Source of the DNA: Fidelibacterota bacterium
GTDB lineage: Bacteria; Fidelibacterota; Marinisomatia; Marinisomatales; SCKK01
Length of the DNA stretch: 37,983 bases
Direction: 5' to 3'
Assembly (NCBI GenBank): GCA_004124475.1
Contig: SCKK01000033.1
Coordinates: 1-37,983 of the forward strand
Program-made: the position numbers and the translations under genes
The notes under the pieces: generated by a model
What the model was told of the DNA's origin: nothing
Databases searched by the model: none
Seen by the model: the letters and a program-made list of their open reading frames with translations, nothing else
In this document: positions 2,842-16,407 of the stretch, in pieces
Numbering within the stretch: position 1 is the stretch's first letter
How the letters are laid out: each line of letters begins with the position of its first letter

Positions 2842-3456
2842 ATGACTCGAGAATCAAAACAAGACATAAGAAAAAAGCAAATCCTTGATGCTGCCCTAAA
2901 GCTTGTAGTAGAAAAAGGATATTCCAACTGCCGAATGGACGATATTGTACAAACGTCAAATCTCAGCAAAGGATCAATCTACTGGTACTATAAATCCAAA
3001 AAGGAAGTATTCCTATCCCTCATCAATTATTGGGTAAATAATTTTGGTGTCACATTAAATCATATTGTAGAAGAAGATCTTTCTCCTTCTGACCAACTGA
3101 AACGACTCTTTGAATTTTTTCTGAATATCTATGAAAATAACCCAAATGTTTTTATAGCGGAACTCGAATTTTGGAGCTTATCAATTCGGGATGAAGACTT
3201 TAATAAAAAAATACAAAAAGTCTATAACGAATTTCTTGAATTGATTGAAAATATCATTCAAAAAGGGGTTGAAATTGGGGAATTCAAAAACGTTGAAGTA
3301 AAGGTAGCAGCACTCTCCATTTTGGTCAACATCGAAGGGATTATTTGGTTTTCTTTATTTAATATACACGGAATAACCGCCAGACATTACATCGAAACGA
3401 TCACAGACTTTATTCTCGCAGGGCTGTCAAAAGGATCTGAAAGGAATTATTCATGA
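2842..3456 (+). CDS. TetR/AcrR-family regulator of the fatty-acid degradation operon
   Basis: 204 residues. The N-terminal TetR DNA-binding domain is clear (about residues 10-56: KKQILDAALKLVVEKGYS, then CRMDDIVQTSNLSKGSIYWYY and KSKKEVF). The rest is an all-helical ligand-binding domain. The gene is first in an operon and overlaps fadE by 4 bp (ATGA at 3453), so the two are translationally coupled. By context this is a repressor that senses fatty acids or acyl-CoA, like FadR of Bacillus or PsrA-type TetR proteins. The ligand is inferred from context, not seen. The palindrome at 2815-2832 is its likely binding site. The ATG at 2842 follows a very short leader without a Shine-Dalgarno sequence. 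Confidence 0.9.
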   Translation: MTRESKQDIRKKQILDAALKLVVEKGYSNCRMDDIVQTSNLSKGSIYWYYKSKKEVFLSLINYWVNNFGVTLNHIVEEDLSPSDQLKRLFEFFLNIYENNPNVFIAELEFWSLSIRDEDFNKKIQKVYNEFLELIENIIQKGVEIGEFKNVEVKVAALSILVNIEGIIWFSLFNIHGITARHYIETITDFILAGLSKGSERNYS

Positions 3457-5240
3457 ATGAATCAGTAACTTCCAATAAAACCGGAGGACTTTATCTTCTA
3501 AATGTCGTTGGAGAAGAACCGATTTTTACCCGGGAACAATTCTCTGAAGAACATCAGGAAATCGGAAAGATGGTAGCTGAATTCAGCACCGAAAAAATCG
3601 CAACTATTATCGATGATATTGAGAAACAAGATAAAGAGCTTTCTTGCCGTTTACTGCGGGAACTGGGTGAATTGGGGCTTCTATCTATTGATATTCCTGA
3701 GAAATATGACGGATTGAATATGGATAAAACAACTTCCATCATCGTTGCCGAATCAATGGCGCATGGCCATTCCGGGTCATTCGCTACAACCTGGTCTGTT
3801 CAAACAGGGATCGGAATGTTACCCATCGTCTGGTTTGGAAATGATAAACAAAAGGAGAAATATCTTCCCAAACTTGCCAGTGCGGAATGGATAGGCGCCT
3901 ATGCCCTAACTGAACCGGATTCCGGATCAGATGCAACCTCTGCAAAAACTACCGCAATTTTAAGTAAGGACGGAAAATATTATATCCTTAATGGAGAAAA
4001 ACAGTTCATCACCAATGGTGGCTGGGCGGATGTTTATACCCTGTTTGCTCAAGTAGATGGCTCAAAATTTACAGCTTTCATCATCGATAGAGATACGCCA
4101 GGATTTGAGATTGGACCTGAAGAACACAAACTTGGTGTTAAAGGATCTTCCACTGTTTCTCTAAAACTAAACGATGCAAAAGTACCTTTGGATAATGTTC
4201 TGGGAGAAATCGGTGGAGGAGCAACCATCGCCTTTAATGCACTCAATATCGGTAGATTAAAACTTGGCGCTTCCACACTTGGAGGTAGTAAGGAGGTCAT
4301 TAATATCACAATACAATACGCTCTAGAACGGAGGCAATTTGGTCAGTCTATTGCTCACTTTGATGTCATTAAGAAAAAAATAGCAGACATGACAGTCCGT
4401 ACTTATGCTTTAGACAGTATCATCTATCGAACGATGGGAATGATCGACCAAGTTATTGCCAGATTGGATCATAACGCTCCTGACTTTTATCTGAAAATGG
4501 GGGAAGCCATGGAACATTTCGCTATCGAATCTTCTATGGTAAAAGTCTTTGGTAGCGAGACACTTGGTTTTTGTAGTGATACAGGCATTCAGGTTCATGG
4601 AGGTTATGGTTACATAGAAGAGTATCCTATTGCTCGAATTTATAGGGACACAAGAATTGACAGGATCTGGGAAGGAACAAATGAAATAAACCGCCAGATT
4701 ATAACAGGATTTTTTATGAAGAAAACACTACTCGACGAAATTCCTCTCCGAGAAAGGATAAAAAATATTGATTCGTTTCTTTCCTCAGTGAATTCGATTT
4801 CTTCTGGTCAACTATTTTTAAACCAACATAATATGATTGAGGCAGGAAAATACTTAACTCTATTTGTATTTGATGAAGCACTGAAAGAGTTCGGTCAAGA
4901 CTTAAAACACAATCAACAGCTTGGCGAACTTTTGGCTGATATGTTCCTCGATCTTTACTTATCAGATAGTACAGTTACAAGGGTAAAACAGGTAATTCAA
5001 AGTACCGGTCAACATTCTGTACTCTCTGCTATTGCACAAGTATTTACTGCGGAGATGGCACTTCGTCTATTAAATCAATCCCTAACAGGATTAAATGATA
5101 TCTATCATGGTAATTTACCGGAAAGTATAATTAATATTCTCCGTAATTTTCAGGTTAGGCTTCTTCCAAGAAGTGATGTAGCAGCCCTTAAACGACAGAT
5201 TGCCGAATATGTATATCTTCAACATAAATACCCATTTTAA
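3453..5240 (+). CDS. fadE: Acyl-CoA dehydrogenase (FadE, Bacillus type)
   Basis: 595 residues, close in length to the roughly 594-residue FadE of Bacillus fadNAE operons and longer than ordinary 380-residue acyl-CoA dehydrogenases because of a C-terminal helical extension. It catalyses the first, FAD-dependent step of beta-oxidation. Visible motifs are IGAYALTEPDSGSDATS (FAD/substrate loop), ERRQFGQSI, QVHGGYGYIEEYPIARIYRD, and IWEGTNEINR, in which Glu407 is the expected catalytic base. The start codon overlaps the regulator's stop. fadA follows after about 30 bp. Electrons would go to an electron-transfer flavoprotein, which is not encoded in this window. Confidence 0.95.
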   Translation: MNESVTSNKTGGLYLLNVVGEEPIFTREQFSEEHQEIGKMVAEFSTEKIATIIDDIEKQDKELSCRLLRELGELGLLSIDIPEKYDGLNMDKTTSIIVAESMAHGHSGSFATTWSVQTGIGMLPIVWFGNDKQKEKYLPKLASAEWIGAYALTEPDSGSDATSAKTTAILSKDGKYYILNGEKQFITNGGWADVYTLFAQVDGSKFTAFIIDRDTPGFEIGPEEHKLGVKGSSTVSLKLNDAKVPLDNVLGEIGGGATIAFNALNIGRLKLGASTLGGSKEVINITIQYALERRQFGQSIAHFDVIKKKIADMTVRTYALDSIIYRTMGMIDQVIARLDHNAPDFYLKMGEAMEHFAIESSMVKVFGSETLGFCSDTGIQVHGGYGYIEEYPIARIYRDTRIDRIWEGTNEINRQIITGFFMKKTLLDEIPLRERIKNIDSFLSSVNSISSGQLFLNQHNMIEAGKYLTLFVFDEALKEFGQDLKHNQQLGELLADMFLDLYLSDSTVTRVKQVIQSTGQHSVLSAIAQVFTAEMALRLLNQSLTGLNDIYHGNLPESIINILRNFQVRLLPRSDVAALKRQIAEYVYLQHKYPF

Positions 5241-9890: not shown

Positions 9891-10349
9891 TCAAGAAATA
9901 ATAAAAACACCAACTACGCTAATTGGAAAAATCAGGGAAAGTCCTAGTTGGATGATAATATATACGGAATATTTTTCATAGTATATGCAAATAAGCGCCA
10001 TTTCAACCGTCTTACTTTTATTGGGTTTTACCGCATCACTTGATCTGAGATACTCATCATCGGTCCCTACTAGGGAGATGTCATCCAGTGTCATCTGGAT
10101 GAACTTGGAGCTTTTAGAGCAATACTCGCTTTTTGGATCGTGTGCCAAATTCTCAAGTTCCCGCTTTCGCTGTTCATATTTCACGGAGAGGAACCGGAGG
10201 AAGATAATGGGTAGCACATAGTGTTTGTACTCTGCCGGCCCCACTACACCCCGGAGGTTGGTGGCCGCCTCCCACAGGCCTTTCAGGAGTTTCTCAGTTG
10301 ATTCCGAAGCTTCAGTCATTGCTCGTGCGGGACCTACCATACTTACCAA
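9891..10349 (-). pseudogene. Type I restriction-modification methyltransferase HsdM, N-terminal remnant
   Basis: The first about 85 residues match the N-terminal helical domain of HsdM: EKLLKGLWEAATNLRG, AEYKHYVLPIIFLRFLS and the DPKSEY region. HsdM is the adenine methyltransferase subunit of type I systems and normally exceeds 450 residues. Here homology fades near residue 95. The frame continues into AT-rich sequence with no catalytic NPPF motif and stops at 9891. No hsdS or hsdR is visible nearby, so this is a relic. The start is uncertain (TTG 10349, ATG 10340 or ATG 10319); the domain itself begins near 10319. Type I loci often carry toxin-antitoxin genes, and one lies just upstream here. 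Confidence 0.75.
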
Positions 10350-10416: not shown

Positions 10417-10698
10417 CTACTGACCATATACCTCCCCATGGCTCCCCACGCTGATAGGCACGATGGTATCTTCCTTGAAGATGAAATGTAAGACAATTCG
10501 ATAACTAATATTGATAGAAACGGCGTACAGGTCCTTGAACTTTCCGGTAAGTTTGTGCAGGCGAATAGAAGGGTGCTGAGGGTTCACTTCTAATAGCTTA
10601 AGAGTCTTGCGATATTGCTCCTTTAATTCCGAGGGTTGATTTACGAATTTCCTTGCTCTCCGATGATAAGACTTGGTGTAGCGGATCTTATAGCTCAT
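10417..10698 (-). CDS. RelE/ParE-family toxin
   Basis: 93 residues with the small basic RelE/ParE fold. It opens with YKIRYTKSYHRRARKF, has LHKLTGKFKDLYAVSINISYRIVLHF in the middle, and ends in VGSHGEVYG, the signature tail of many RelE-like plasmid-stabilisation toxins. Members usually cleave mRNA on the ribosome; some poison gyrase. Sequence alone does not settle which. The ATG at 10698 overlaps the antitoxin gene's end by 11 bp, so the pair is translationally coupled. It is downstream of the antitoxin, the usual order for Phd/YefM-type pairs. Confidence 0.88.
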   Translation of the reverse strand: MSYKIRYTKSYHRRARKFVNQPSELKEQYRKTLKLLEVNPQHPSIRLHKLTGKFKDLYAVSINISYRIVLHFIFKEDTIVPISVGSHGEVYGQ

Positions 10699-10945
10699 TC
10701 TCCATTCGCTCGATGTGCTCGTCTACCGATTCCTCCACGAAGTCTCCTTTCTCCAGGTCACTGAGGGATTCTGCCAGAGCTGCTTCCAGTTCACACTCCC
10801 GGAGGTAGTTATACCGCTCAATATCCATAACCACAAAGCGATCTTTTCCACGAACTGTAATGGAGACTTCCTCCGAATCTTTGAGAGCTTCCTCCAGGCT
10901 TTTGGCACCCTTTGTTTTCAATTCATTAGCTGTTAATGTAGTCAT
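10688..10945 (-). CDS. Phd/YefM-type antitoxin
   Basis: 85 residues from the ATG at 10945, preceded by AGGAAG. The N-terminal domain (LTANELKTKGAKSLEEAL, then VSITVRGKDRFVVMDIERYNYL) is the DNA-binding fold of Phd/YefM antitoxins. The C-terminal half is acidic and helical, as expected for toxin wrapping. A longer in-frame start at 11083 would add 46 residues that do not match the family and would overrun the promoter. It is expected to repress its own promoter through the palindrome at 10982-11001, together with the toxin. Confidence 0.88.
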   Translation of the reverse strand: MTTLTANELKTKGAKSLEEALKDSEEVSITVRGKDRFVVMDIERYNYLRECELEAALAESLSDLEKGDFVEESVDEHIERMENEL

Positions 10946-10980
10946 TTGATCTTCCTGAAGTCTTATTATTGGTTTGATTA

Positions 10981-11009
10981 ATAGTACGAATATTTGTACT
11001 AAATGTAAA
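10981..11009 (-). promoter_or_regulatory. Toxin-antitoxin promoter with embedded operator
   Basis: On the minus strand TTTACA (11009-11004) and TACTAT (10986-10981) are exactly 17 bp apart, a near-consensus sigma-70 promoter. The spacer and -10 contain TAGTACGAATATTTGTACTA (10982-11001), a 20-bp palindrome broken by one base pair. Antitoxin bound there would occlude RNA polymerase. The antitoxin ATG is about 35 bp downstream. Confidence 0.72.
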
Positions 11010-11176
11010 CCTTTTACTCTCCCTCCACTACACTTTTTTTCAATCGCCTTGCCTCCTCCCACTTGAGGCTCACTTTTACCCATGACTGAAAAAGCTGCAG
11101 TGTCAACTGTGTCCCAAAATCAGCATCAAACGGGGTGGATCCCGTCCCAAAACCTCAGGACTGGAAACATGGGTTG

Positions 11177-11899
11177 TTATAACCTGACAGAATCCTGGAA
11201 CAACTCCCCCAACACCTCCCCCGCCATTCCCCGATAAATAATATCATACATATCGGATTGTTCCGAGGGTTCCGGATTAATTTCGACACAGAGAGCGCCC
11301 GCTGATCGTGCCAGTTGTGGATAACCGGCAGCAGGCCAAACCACGCCCGAGGTACCAATACTGATAAACAAGTTAGTTTTTGAAATGACTTTGTCCGCCT
11401 TTGCAGTTACAGCAGGATCGAGGTAATCACTGAACCAGACAATATCAGGTCTTAGCCAGCTTCCACACTCACATTTTCGATTGGCATAAGTACCATTTTT
11501 TAAATCCTCCCGGACAGTCCCTTCCGACGAACAACGCATTCTCCATGCACTACCATGAAGTTCGATTACATTCTTTGATCCAGCCCGTTGATGCATGCCA
11601 TCAATATTCTGTGTTACCACCTGAACATCGGGATGATTCTTTTCTATCTCCGTTATGATTTTGTGCCCAATGTGTGGCTTGCATTTCAAAGCTTCGATAC
11701 GGCGAAGTTCATGAAAGTCCAACACTTTTTCAGGATCACTTTCAAATGCCTCCTGGCAAGCATATTCCTCCCACTTGTATTTGTGCCAGATCCCACCCCG
11801 CCCCCGGTAAGTAGGTACTCCCGACTCTGCCGACATTCCCGCACCCGTAAAAAAGACAATATGTGAATAATCATAAGGATTGATGGTTTCTACTTCCAT
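11177..11899 (-). CDS. cobB: Sir2-family NAD-dependent protein deacylase (CobB-like)
   Basis: 240 residues, a typical bacterial sirtuin. NAD-binding motifs: GAGMSAESGVPTYRG (residues 19-33), TQNID (96-100), and the catalytic His115 in ELHG. Zinc region: Cys123, Cys143 and Cys145, with the second cysteine of the first CxxC missing (CSSE), comparable to the degenerate zinc site of E. coli CobB. C-terminal NAD motif IGTSGVVWPA. In class III sirtuins a Tyr-x-x-Arg pair selects succinyl or malonyl lysine. Here the equivalent segment reads FHELRR, with His63 in place of Tyr and Arg66 kept, so acyl preference is open. It removes acyl groups from lysines using NAD+. It stands alone in the accessory block. 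Confidence 0.92.
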   Translation of the reverse strand: MEVETINPYDYSHIVFFTGAGMSAESGVPTYRGRGGIWHKYKWEEYACQEAFESDPEKVLDFHELRRIEALKCKPHIGHKIITEIEKNHPDVQVVTQNIDGMHQRAGSKNVIELHGSAWRMRCSSEGTVREDLKNGTYANRKCECGSWLRPDIVWFSDYLDPAVTAKADKVISKTNLFISIGTSGVVWPAAGYPQLARSAGALCVEINPEPSEQSDMYDIIYRGMAGEVLGELFQDSVRL

Positions 11900-12884: not shown

Positions 12885-13811
12885 TCATATCCCAAGAACA
12901 TTTCTCCTTGTTTCGATTAACTCCAAATACTTTAACTTCATGGCATCAGATAAAAAACTGATTTCAATCAGGTTTTGCCAATGTGAGATAGCATCATGGA
13001 GGAAGTCTAAAACGTCTCTAATTGTAGGTTGATTAAGGCGAAGACGTTCTTCACCGAAGTACTTTATCAGGTCATTTCTTGTCAAATTTCTTTTTTTTCC
13101 GTGAATAGGAAGAGCTATCTCTTCTTCCGGATTAGTCTGCGCAATTGTCGTATTAATCAAATCGTAAGCCGGAGATATCTCAACCTTTGATGACCTTGTT
13201 ATCAATGAGAAATTTTTCAAATGCATATCTTCATTTCCTATTAGATAATTGAATACGGTCAGCCGGAAAAGTTTTAATTTTTCAAGTGCAGGGAATGTAC
13301 AGTAATCGAGTAGATGGACTATCTTCTCCATCGAATATTTGTATTTTGTATCCCTACTCAATCCTGCTAACTGGGCAAAGTCCTCAACTGGTAATTTCCG
13401 GTTTCGACCCATTCTATCAAATCTTTTGATGAAGTATGTCAGTGAACCATCTTTGGAACAAATGAGTCCATGAAGCGGTACTTCGATACCAGCCGTCTTT
13501 GCTAACTTCATAGTGAGATCCTCGTTTTCCGGAAGTTCCAAATAAATAATATTTTGAGGTTTTAAGATATATTTTCCTCCGGTATCTACGACTTGAAACA
13601 TTTCTTCCTTCACTTTTAAAACAGCGCTTAACTTTGGTTGGACACCTTGAATGGACATTTTCACCGCTCGAGTAACAGCTTCATTTCGCTGTTCCTGAGC
13701 AGTATAAGGAAAACCACGAAGCTGGTTTAAGTTTCTTGATAGGAGATGAAGACCCTTTTGTGAGTACCTTTCTGTACCACAAACTTCATAGGTGATTGGG
13801 CAACGATTCAT
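12885..13811 (-). CDS. hipT: HipT-like serine/threonine kinase toxin
   Basis: 308 residues, the kinase part of a HipA protein without its N-terminal subdomain. The Gly-rich loop region is MSIQGVQPK (residues 52-60), with Ser53 and Gln55 where HipT toxins have a phosphorylatable Ser-x-Ser-type motif. Lys84 in YILKPQ is the probable ATP lysine. Catalytic Asp195 and Asn200 lie in GNEDMHLKNF, and metal-binding Asp217 is in ISPAYDL. HipA/HipT kinases phosphorylate aminoacyl-tRNA synthetases (GltX for HipA, TrpS for E. coli HipT); the target here is unknown. The ATG overlaps the hipS stop by 4 bp. Together with hipS and hipB this is the split HipBST arrangement. Confidence 0.88.
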   Translation of the reverse strand: MNRCPITYEVCGTERYSQKGLHLLSRNLNQLRGFPYTAQEQRNEAVTRAVKMSIQGVQPKLSAVLKVKEEMFQVVDTGGKYILKPQNIIYLELPENEDLTMKLAKTAGIEVPLHGLICSKDGSLTYFIKRFDRMGRNRKLPVEDFAQLAGLSRDTKYKYSMEKIVHLLDYCTFPALEKLKLFRLTVFNYLIGNEDMHLKNFSLITRSSKVEISPAYDLINTTIAQTNPEEEIALPIHGKKRNLTRNDLIKYFGEERLRLNQPTIRDVLDFLHDAISHWQNLIEISFLSDAMKLKYLELIETRRNVLGI

Positions 13812-14119
13812 TCTACTTCTTCCACCGTAGCGGCACCCACCAAATCTTGACCCACAGCCAAAAGCTGACTGAAATAGTCATACTGGTCAATCTTCCTTAG
13901 ACGAAGTAATCCTTCTAACATGACGCCTTCCGGTAACAGTCCATCAAAAAAAGGAGGAAACCGGTCAAAGCTGTATGATCGTTGCGCCAACGGCATTGTC
14001 AACGATACGGGTGGTCCCTCGTAATCTTCGTCATATTCAAATTTATAAGACCGACTCCTCTCCAGCTCCTGTAGATAACCTGCTGAAATGCCATCAATGT
14101 ATACTTTAGCTTTTCTCAT
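13808..14119 (-). CDS. hipS: HipS-like antitoxin (HipA N-terminal subdomain as a separate protein)
   Basis: 103 residues: AKVYIDGISAGYLQEL, then FEYDEDYEGPPVSLTMPL and FPPFFDGLLPEGVMLEGLLR. This is the N-terminal subdomain found at the start of full-length HipA, here encoded separately. In E. coli HipBST this small protein, not HipB, neutralises HipT. Start chosen at 14119 (MRKAKV) because GAGGA lies 8 bp before it; an ATG at 14140 has no good ribosome site. The gene overlaps hipB by 14 bp and hipT by 4 bp, so the three are tightly coupled. Confidence 0.85.
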   Translation of the reverse strand: MRKAKVYIDGISAGYLQELERSRSYKFEYDEDYEGPPVSLTMPLAQRSYSFDRFPPFFDGLLPEGVMLEGLLRLRKIDQYDYFSQLLAVGQDLVGAATVEEVE

Positions 14120-14348
14120 TTTCAAATTCCTCGAATTCATTCATGAGAGGACTTTCATAAGTGATATGGATATTTAGAATCTCCAATATCTTCCATAAAG
14201 TATTCAATCTTATAGTTGTTTTGCCCTTTTCAATATCGTAAATAACCGTTTTCCCCACACCGGCTAAAGCTGCAAGCTCGTTCCGTGACAATCCACTCCT
14301 TTTCCGGTGGAATAAAACTATCCTCCCTATCTTATTTATATCACTCAT
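14106..14348 (-). CDS. hipB: HipB-like XRE-family DNA-binding antitoxin
   Basis: 80 residues. The Cro/C1-type helix-turn-helix is clear: [32 protein letters not shown], followed by TIRLNTLWKILEILNI. Its C-terminus is short and acidic (EFEEFENEKS). It is the first gene of the hipB-hipS-hipT operon, with AAAGGA seven bases before the ATG. As in other hip loci it should bind upstream operators and repress the operon. Three well-matched sites lie upstream at 14375, 14447 and 14519. Confidence 0.9.
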   Translation of the reverse strand: MSDINKIGRIVLFHRKRSGLSRNELAALAGVGKTVIYDIEKGKTTIRLNTLWKILEILNIHITYESPLMNEFEEFENEKS

Positions 14349-14374
14349 ATTAGATTCCTTTTAACACCTATTTC

Positions 14375-14392
14375 TTACCGTTATAGCAGCAA
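14375..14392 (+). promoter_or_regulatory. HipB operator, site 1
   Basis: TTACCGTTATAGCAGCAA, closest to hipB (27 bp upstream of its ATG). It matches the other two sites at TTACCGT and at most positions of AGCGGCAA. Confidence 0.65.
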
Positions 14393-14412
14393 TACTAATC
14401 CTATCCGCATCA

Positions 14413-14442
14413 ATATTACACTATTTAAACTAATAAAAGCAA
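14413..14442 (-). promoter_or_regulatory. Candidate hipBST promoter
   Basis: On the minus strand TTGCTT (14442-14437) and TAATAT (14418-14413) are 18 bp apart. Operator site 2 lies immediately upstream of the -35 and site 1 lies downstream of the -10. An alternative -10, TATAAC, overlaps site 1. Confidence 0.45.
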
Positions 14443-14446
14443 TGTT

Positions 14447-14464
14447 TTCCCGTTGTAACGGTAA
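14447..14464 (-). promoter_or_regulatory. HipB operator, site 2
   Basis: On the minus strand TTACCGTTACAACGGGAA. Its core CCGTTGTAACGG (14450-14461) has perfect 5-bp arms. Its centre is exactly 72 bp from the centres of sites 1 and 3, and its orientation is opposite to theirs. Confidence 0.7.
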
Positions 14465-14518
14465 AAAATAGATATTATCAGTTTTAATTCCAGAAAAATA
14501 CAAAATAGACCACAAGAA

Positions 14519-14536
14519 TTACCGTCTTAGCGGCAA
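14519..14536 (+). promoter_or_regulatory. HipB operator, site 3
   Basis: TTACCGTCTTAGCGGCAA, the most upstream copy, 72 bp from site 2. It lies between hipBST and the end of aspS. Confidence 0.65.
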
Positions 14537-14637: not shown

Positions 14638-16407
14638 TTATTCCTTTAGGACAATCCCCAGCTCATCCAACTGATCTTTGGATACTTTACTTGGAGAACC
14701 ATCCATCAGTGAAAGAGCACTGGTTGTTTTGGGGAAGGCAATGACATCCCGAATCTGGTGGGTACCGGCGAGAATCATCACCAAACGGTCGTAGCCAAAA
14801 GCAATTCCGCCGTGGGGTGGAGCACCGTATGTGAGAGCCTCCAGGAGAAATCCAAACTTCTCTTTTGCCTCAGCTTCAGCAATTCCAATCAGGTTGAAAA
14901 TCTTCATCTGTACATCCGGATCGTGAATTCGGATAGAGCCTCCTGCTACTTCGTAGCCATTAATCACAAGATCATACGCTCTCGATTTCACTTCGCCAGG
15001 ATTAGTTTCCAGCAGCTTAATGTCCTCTTGCCTCGGTGCGGTGAAAGGATGATGGAGAAATGTCCAGACCTCATTCTTTTCTTCCCACTCAAGAAGAGGA
15101 AAATCGACAATCCACAAAGGTTTATAACTCTTGCTATCCAGCCATCCTTCCCCCTTCGCAATTTCAACTCGAAGGGCACCCATCGTAGGAAGGACGGTAT
15201 TTCTCATCCCACCCGTTGTAAGGATGAGGCTACCATCAACCAATCCAAACTCCTCTATAATTTGTTGCCTAACGTTCTGAGAAAAGAACTTTGAAATTCC
15301 ACCAGTTAGGTCACCATCCTTGAAACGCATCCATCCCAAACTTTCGATAGCCTCTTTACCCTCCTGAGCTGAGTACTCCTTGACAAACTCAGAAAGCTGG
15401 TCGATGACTTTTCGAGAATAGCCTTCCCCATTTTCGATAACCAGAGCTTTTATACATTCTGCCGATTTGAATGCCCTGAAATCAGATTCCCTGGCATAAA
15501 CGAAAAAATCAATCAAGGGCAGGTCAAATCTCAAATCCGGTTTATCTGTTCCGTAGGTTTCTAACGCATCCTCATAAGATAGGGTTGGAAAGGGAGCTCC
15601 CAGATTGACGTCTATGACTTCTTTAAACACTTGTGTTACAAGACCTTCCGAAGCTGCCAATACATCTGTCTCATCCACAAAAGACATCTCGATGTCGATC
15701 TGGGTAAACTCAGGTTGCCTGTTAGCCCGGAGGTCCTCATCCCGAAAACACTTGACGATCTGGAAATAGCGGTCGAAGCCGGCAATCATCAAAAGTTGCT
15801 TGTATTGTTGTGGACTTTGAGGAAGGGCATAAAACCTACCCTTATGAATACGACTTGGAACCAGGTAATCCCGGGCACCTTCCGGGGTTGACTTCATGAG
15901 AAATGGTGTCTCAATTTCCATGAAATTCTGACTGCTCAGATAATTCCGTACCGATTGAGATGCTTTGTGTCGAATTGACATAAACTGTTGCAGGTCTTCC
16001 GTTCTAAGTTCCAGATACCGGTATTTTAGTCTTAATTCTTCGGCTGCACTGTTCCTGTCGCTCACCAAAAATGGAAGTGGTTTCGCTTCATTCAAAATTT
16101 CCATCTCCACCACTTCTACCTCAATTTCCCCCGTACTGATTGCAACATTGATCGCCCCTTTCTTTCGTGCTCTCACCTCACCTTGAATAGAAACCACATC
16201 TTCCATTGACAACTTACGTGCAATTTTGAAAACATCGGGATGTGCCTCTTCATTAAACGTCAATTGTGTGATACCATAGCGGTCCCGGATATCGACAAAA
16301 ATGAGCCCCCCGTGGTCTCTTGTTGTGGATACCCACCCATTTAGAGCGACGTTAGCACTTAAATCTGACGATCTGAGTTCCCCACAGGTGTGCGTTCGCT
16401 TATACAT
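14638..16407 (-). CDS. aspS: Aspartyl-tRNA synthetase (bacterial type)
   Basis: 589 residues, standard length for bacterial AspRS. N-terminal OB-fold anticodon domain (THTCGELR, GWVSTTRDHGGLIFVDIRDRYG), then class II catalytic core with motif 2 (FRDEDLRANRQPEFTQIDIEMSF), the bacterial GAD insertion in the middle, and motif 3 (GIAFGYDRLVMILAG) near the end. It charges tRNA-Asp with aspartate in the cytosol. Whether it is discriminating, or also charges tRNA-Asn, cannot be told from this window. AGGA lies 8 bp before the ATG. It is on the same strand as the atp operon but separated from atpC by a 470-bp repeat-bearing gap, so it probably has its own promoter. Confidence 0.97.
   Translation of the reverse strand: MYKRTHTCGELRSSDLSANVALNGWVSTTRDHGGLIFVDIRDRYGITQLTFNEEAHPDVFKIARKLSMEDVVSIQGEVRARKKGAINVAISTGEIEVEVVEMEILNEAKPLPFLVSDRNSAAEELRLKYRYLELRTEDLQQFMSIRHKASQSVRNYLSSQNFMEIETPFLMKSTPEGARDYLVPSRIHKGRFYALPQSPQQYKQLLMIAGFDRYFQIVKCFRDEDLRANRQPEFTQIDIEMSFVDETDVLAASEGLVTQVFKEVIDVNLGAPFPTLSYEDALETYGTDKPDLRFDLPLIDFFVYARESDFRAFKSAECIKALVIENGEGYSRKVIDQLSEFVKEYSAQEGKEAIESLGWMRFKDGDLTGGISKFFSQNVRQQIIEEFGLVDGSLILTTGGMRNTVLPTMGALRVEIAKGEGWLDSKSYKPLWIVDFPLLEWEEKNEVWTFLHHPFTAPRQEDIKLLETNPGEVKSRAYDLVINGYEVAGGSIRIHDPDVQMKIFNLIGIAEAEAKEKFGFLLEALTYGAPPHGGIAFGYDRLVMILAGTHQIRDVIAFPKTTSALSLMDGSPSKVSKDQLDELGIVLKE

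Follow-up and report, generated by a model that had tools for sequence, protein, structure and literature searches.

What are three evenly spaced palindromes doing in front of a toxin–antitoxin operon in a bacterium of the Fidelibacterota, and does their spacing mean anything? The window, by which we mean the whole 37,983-nucleotide stretch of DNA that was analysed, carries on its minus strand a complete hipBST operon with the gene order hipB-hipS-hipT, as judged from the list of open reading frames and Pfam. Its parts are as follows.

14106 to 14348, minus strand: hipB, an 80-aa HTH repressor (Pfam HTH_3, 1.7e-13; PDB 8ezt, HipB(Lp), 1.4e-22)
13808 to 14140, minus strand: hipS, a HipA N-terminal domain (Pfam Couple_hipA, 8.4e-24)
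12885 to 13811, minus strand: hipT, a HipA-like kinase without the N-terminal domain, with the loop SIQGVQPKL (Pfam HipA_C, 3.4e-46; PDB 8ezr, HipT(Lp), 1.9e-119)
14356 to 14362, minus strand: a Shine-Dalgarno-like AAAAGGA ahead of hipB, picked out by eye

A HipBST system is one in which a toxic HipT, whose target is TrpS, is neutralised by HipS. Its gene content and order are those of HipBST (an HTH protein, a HipA N-terminal domain, and a kinase core without that domain), and the start of hipS in the relatives corresponds to Met8, i.e., 14119 here. In the alignment, the HipT of the window has the kinase motifs and the serine beside the Gly-rich loop (SIQGVQPKL, NEDMHLKN), which HipTs are described as retaining (PMC8262856, cited from excerpts). 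A second toxin–antitoxin pair is found at 10417-11083 on the minus strand, consisting of a YafQ/HigB-like toxin (under the Pfam cut-off) and a Phd/YefM antitoxin; a Sir2-family protein (11177-11899, minus strand) sits between the two modules, and a short open reading frame with an HsdM N-terminal domain (9891-10349, minus strand) is perhaps a truncated type I restriction–modification gene. Carriage on plasmids or phages as the setting for hipBST was rejected: at E 1e-40, 6 of the 72,556 records of plasmids matched, and no phage record did.

Upstream of the operon adjoins aspS (14638-16407), and the 289-bp gap between aspS and hipB holds all three sites, listed here with their scores under a matrix built from outside the phylum.

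14375 to 14392, minus strand: O1, the site nearest hipB, reading TTGCTGCTATAACGGTAA on the hipB strand, 25.2 bits
14447 to 14464, minus strand: O2, reading TTACCGTTACAACGGGAA on the hipB strand, 18.3 bits
14519 to 14536, minus strand: O3, reading TTGCCGCTAAGACGGTAA on the hipB strand, 23.1 bits

These are imperfect palindromes of 18 bp with the consensus TTACYGYTATARCRGTAA, starting at 14375, 14447 and 14519, so that the start-to-start distances are 72 and 72 bp and the gaps 54 bp. The end of O1 is 26 bp from the hipB ATG, and O3 lies about 100 bp beyond the aspS stop. The preliminary description had given the sites as TTACCGTTATAGCAGCAA (14375-14392), TTACCGTTACAACGGGAA (14464-14447, minus strand) and TTACCGTCTTAGCGGCAA (14519-14536) at 72-bp intervals, and all of this was exact when the window was re-checked. 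Its remark that the middle site is inverted carries little meaning, since the sites are near-palindromic and the middle one matches the other strand too with 2 mismatches. It had also equated 72 bp with about seven helical turns, which is right at 10.2 bp per turn (7.06 turns) but not at 10.5 bp per turn, where the distance is 6.86 turns and each step falls about 51 degrees short.

The pattern drawn from the three sites matches, in its exact form, only these sites in the 3.15-Mb genome, a test that is circular because the pattern was drawn from those very sites. With up to 2 mismatches it matches 44 times in the genome, fewer than the 60 of the reversed control, which leaves no excess across the genome as a whole. 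A wider HipB regulon in this genome was likewise rejected, two patterns at 2-3 mismatches being no more frequent than the reversed control, and no second operator cluster was seen among the matches listed. For a non-circular test, 260 sites from hipBST loci of other phyla were made into a matrix, which was scanned over the 38-kb window: O1, O3 and O2 rank first to third, and the fourth match reaches 10.1 bits. At 9 bits or more, this matrix gives 17 matches in 651 kb outside the upstream regions of the 105 loci described below; those upstream regions hold 306 matches in 36 kb under a different matrix. Control loci with a full-length HipA gave 5 matrix matches in 29 loci (37 kb), a number that is low, though above zero. 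That a reader had merely picked out chance repeats, as the commonness of mismatch-tolerant matches might suggest, is a negligible prospect, already refuted by the out-of-phylum matrix, which puts the three sites on top and 8 bits above the next match; in addition, the other class-1 hipBST loci that represent Fidelibacterota in the set, 12 in number, all carry the motif at turn-sized spacing. The three palindromes upstream of hipBST are confirmed as a real feature.

Arrays of this general kind are familiar. Upstream of hipB in the hipBA operon of E. coli K-12 lies an array of 18-bp palindromes that is read by the HipB dimer. The window shares the array and its place, but the K-12 sites that we located on the sequence (TATCC-N8-GGATA) are four in number, stand 28, 39 and 28 bp apart, which are not multiples of 10.2, and differ in sequence from the sites of the window, which read TTRCYGY... 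instead. The hipBST of E. coli O127 has the same three genes, yet its HipT is only distantly related (7ab4, 1.1e-22); in a reporter, its HipB is sufficient to repress the promoter (PMC10627512), and the Legionella operator motif is stated to be absent from it (PMC10653801; both cited from excerpts). This E. coli-type, or third, class of HipBST was found in 0 of 312 gammaproteobacterial genomes, and a search by DNA gave no E. coli match. The one match was on an Aliivibrio plasmid, and its upstream region is without a clear repeated palindrome. On this plasmid (Aliivibrio fischeri pCG103-32, 3002-4039 of the locus L202), two adjoining genes annotated with HipA domains lie downstream of a hipBS-like pair.

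The closest parallel is the hipBST of Legionella, where three 18-nt inverted-repeat operators, O1–O3, with gaps of 53 bp are bound by HipB (PMC10653801, mBio 2023, here and below cited from excerpts). In gel shifts, HipB binds each of the three, HipT joins it and HipS probably does too; an operator with broken symmetry was still bound, and the authors read the shifts as allowing intermediate occupancy, with cooperativity not evident (PMC10653801). As in the window, the three sites are evenly spaced upstream of hipB, with gaps one bp shorter than the 54 bp here, and the nearest site is 24 nt before hipB as against 26. When we scanned the Legionella loci, they showed the same consensus at a spacing of 71-72 bp. 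The window has three 18-nt palindromes of this consensus at an even spacing of about 71 bp (72 and 72), and since Legionella has the same array, that of the window belongs to a known kind and is a further case of it. The excerpts of the report differ from the present account in that they describe the array within Legionella only and without a helix-turn reading; the promoter, moreover, is predicted over O1 there and seemingly lies about two turns further upstream here. The preliminary description had taken the sites for HipB operators, and this is supported both by the conservation of the motif in the relatives and by the binding of HipB to the matching Legionella array in gel shifts (PMC10653801).

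For a wider comparison, relatives of HipT were searched at E 1e-60 in the phylum of the window (14 of 245 genomes) and in the phyla to which a Flavobacterium genome (35 of 395), a desulfobacterial genome (4 of 297) and a spirochaete genome (9 of 296) belong. In gammaproteobacteria, 42 of 369 genomes matched at E 1e-20, most with full-length HipA; the one other genome of the same genus that was searched had no HipT match. From the genome collection, 80 loci were kept out of 468. Loci were required to have a HipT score above 230 bits and a hipB, which left out L013-L015 and L188 (hipB not found), and the merging of 18 loci with near-identical upstream regions reduced 123 loci to 105; L012 was left out of the motif-free repeat scan and of the motif comparison of upstream regions. 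By record titles and tree labels, the 105 non-redundant loci span about ten phyla. Under the iterated matrix, 81 loci have three sites, 8 have four or five, and 14 have two; the two with fewer than two sites have one and none, respectively.

The spacing of these sites follows a simple rule. A seed matrix made from the 9 sites of 3 Fidelibacterota loci, which contains no spacing information, placed 190 of the 196 adjacent spacings in the 102 other loci in four classes, 31, 40-41, 60-62 and 70-73 bp; for the 29 of them that later searches had added, the count was 46 of 48. With the iterated matrix and all 105 loci, 192 of 199 adjacent spacings of up to 110 bp deviate by no more than 1.6 bp from a multiple of 10.2 bp, where chance would give about 31%. 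The best period is 10.20 bp, with a resultant of 0.906, a value that in 2000 random sets, which ignore kinship, did not exceed 0.25; 10.5 bp per turn with a fixed offset fits nearly as well (R 0.900 versus 0.906). The class means of 31.0, 40.7, 61.1 and 71.3, taken together with the 40.5 of the other operator family, give a slope of 10.13 bp per turn and an intercept of 0.28. A repeat scan of 83 upstream regions that used no motif found distances peaking at 71 and 61. The exceptions, once each, are 21, 35, 107, 138, 144 and 201 bp. In L037, L039 and L057, added operators divide an interval of about 72 bp into 31 and 40-41 bp; L039 and L057 have five class-1 operators each, with turn-sized steps of 41, 40-41, 31 and 41 bp. 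A comparison of site sequence and spacing in relatives had been proposed with the preliminary description, and both turn out to be conserved in the hipBST relatives. In hipBST loci of about ten phyla, the distance between adjacent predicted operators is thus, with few exceptions, a whole number of helix turns.

The rule recurs in a second family of operators, which strengthens the original idea of phased sites into one of spacings quantised in helix turns. The HipT relatives of this class 2 are about 34-45% identical, and their HipB has the recognition helix GLRF in place of GKTv. No class-1 sites were found in the scanned upstream regions of class-2 loci; their operator is TATACCC-N4-GGGTATA, so a different recognition helix goes with a different palindrome, and the operator sequence follows HipB.

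L137-L149, L190, L192, L196, L199 and L200: class-2 loci with TATACCC-N4-GGGTATA in steps of 40-41 bp

In a set of 18 loci, two of them without a site, 29 of 29 spacings are 40-42 bp, and in 5 further loci, again two without a site, 7 of 7 are 39-41 bp. The loci in which no class-2 site was found are L154, L191, L197 and L198; L153 bears class-1 sites and was left out of the class-2 counts, though its truncated score had placed it with class 2 in the out-of-phylum matrix scan. The predicted class-2 spacing is four helix turns.

That the palindromes are mainly RNA or DNA hairpins, serving as a terminator or attenuator for aspS, is very improbable. A scan calls O3 a terminator-like stem, as it does because O3 is a palindrome; against this reading, the sites come in three copies at fixed intervals across phyla, their sequence is conserved beyond the needs of pairing, the start codon of hipB falls within O1 in some of the relatives, and the Legionella counterparts are bound by HipB (PMC10653801).

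Where would such operators act? The preliminary description had placed a candidate promoter between the first two sites. As a sigma-70 promoter this was dropped, the scan of the hipB strand having found none, but a Bacteroidota-type pair of elements does fall there.

14440 to 14442, minus strand: the -33-like TTG of the candidate hipBST promoter, from an element search
14411 to 14418, minus strand: the -7-like TAATATTG, 21 nt past the TTG and starting 26 nt before O1, with the same offset in L016

The search, in 103 loci and with the offset taken relative to O1, used a Bacteroidota-type consensus, TTG-N19..22-TAnnWTW; published work reportedly uses the form TAnnTTTG. The eight commonest offsets account for 61 matches, 38 of them at 4-5 bp before O1, 5 at -14, 16 at -24 to -26, and 2 elsewhere. 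The element of the window, at -26, shares this offset with that of L016, whose HipT is 65% identical, which makes a hipBST promoter between sites 1 and 2 plausible. In the Fidelibacterota loci L010, L011, L099-L101, L103 and L107, the hipB start codon lies within O1, 8 bp from its start, and in several of these a -7-like element stands just ahead of the start codon, an arrangement that suggests a leaderless hipBST mRNA.

Taken together, we consider it probable that the three sites are the autorepression operators of hipBST, bound by HipB and spaced by whole turns for joint action on one face of the DNA. The comparison shows the predicted operators, the spacing rule and the tie to the HipB subfamily; by analogy with the matching parts of E. 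coli and Legionella hipBST, HipB would bind and repress at the present locus also. Each 18-bp palindrome would be read by one HipB dimer, with HipT and HipS riding on HipB. Because O1 and O2 would bracket the promoter, bound HipB may block RNA polymerase. Kept whole turns apart, seven here, neighbouring complexes would lie on one and the same side of the helix, provided that the complexed DNA is near 10.2 bp per turn, and they may touch, bridging the operators, or their bends may add up, so that repression would hinge on the sites being occupied jointly. At 10.5 bp per turn, each six- or seven-turn step would rotate the next site, always in the same direction, by about 50-75 degrees, giving a regular superhelix in place of a single face; in either geometry, neighbouring complexes would presumably sense each other. 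Such same-face cooperation, with the promoter so placed, is what we infer for this species.

The one serious competitor holds that the HipB operators are bound independently, with the spacing a frozen ancestral layout whose turn-sized steps reflect the geometry of the promoter or a small number of ancient events. We think this unlikely, though far from negligible. On a quick tree of HipT, where the placement of the window itself is weakly supported, the seven-turn state is the widespread one and the six-turn loci fall for the most part into a single clade of 29, as independent binding would have it, so kinship inflates the spacing counts; independent spacing changes are few, and a five-turn spacing (51 bp) occurs in 0 of 199 cases. 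The -7 element, too, steps by turns relative to O1, and the intermediate occupancy read from the Legionella gel shifts fits independent binding and lends no weight to HipB being strongly cooperative by itself (PMC10653801). Yet switches between the six-turn and the seven-turn state number at least 3 in the hipB-proximal interval and 5 in the distal one, some possibly the same event; at least 5 lineages shortened from seven to six turns, and one lengthened again. The distal intervals, which are promoter-free in the model, switch by whole turns in the separate lineages L185, L076 and L053, and the second operator family has four turns. In the 45 seven-turn loci, moreover, the operators are 73.7% identical and the spacers 34.4%, which means that the length of the spacer has been kept and its sequence has not. 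A bolder form of the joint-action reading, of which we are slightly more doubtful than convinced, is that HipBST complexes on three operators form a single nucleoprotein arc or loop at about 10.2 bp per turn, with only whole-turn spacings (3, 4, 6 and 7) selected, in different phyla and even where the operator sequence has changed completely, and with the promoter shifting from O1 in whole turns as well.

In the open-licence literature, we found no account of the extension to about ten phyla, the whole-turn rule or the second operator code. What was a pattern in one genome has become a rule that extends from Fidelibacterota and Bacteroidota as far as Legionella and recurs with a second operator code, and the matrix and the spacing rule can be used to find or check hipBST operators in uncultured bacteria. 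The comparative evidence argues strongly that a toxin–antitoxin repressor may work through helix-phased contacts or bends. Should the arc or loop exist, the neutralisation of the kinase and the repression of the operon would be coupled through the contacts between neighbouring complexes.
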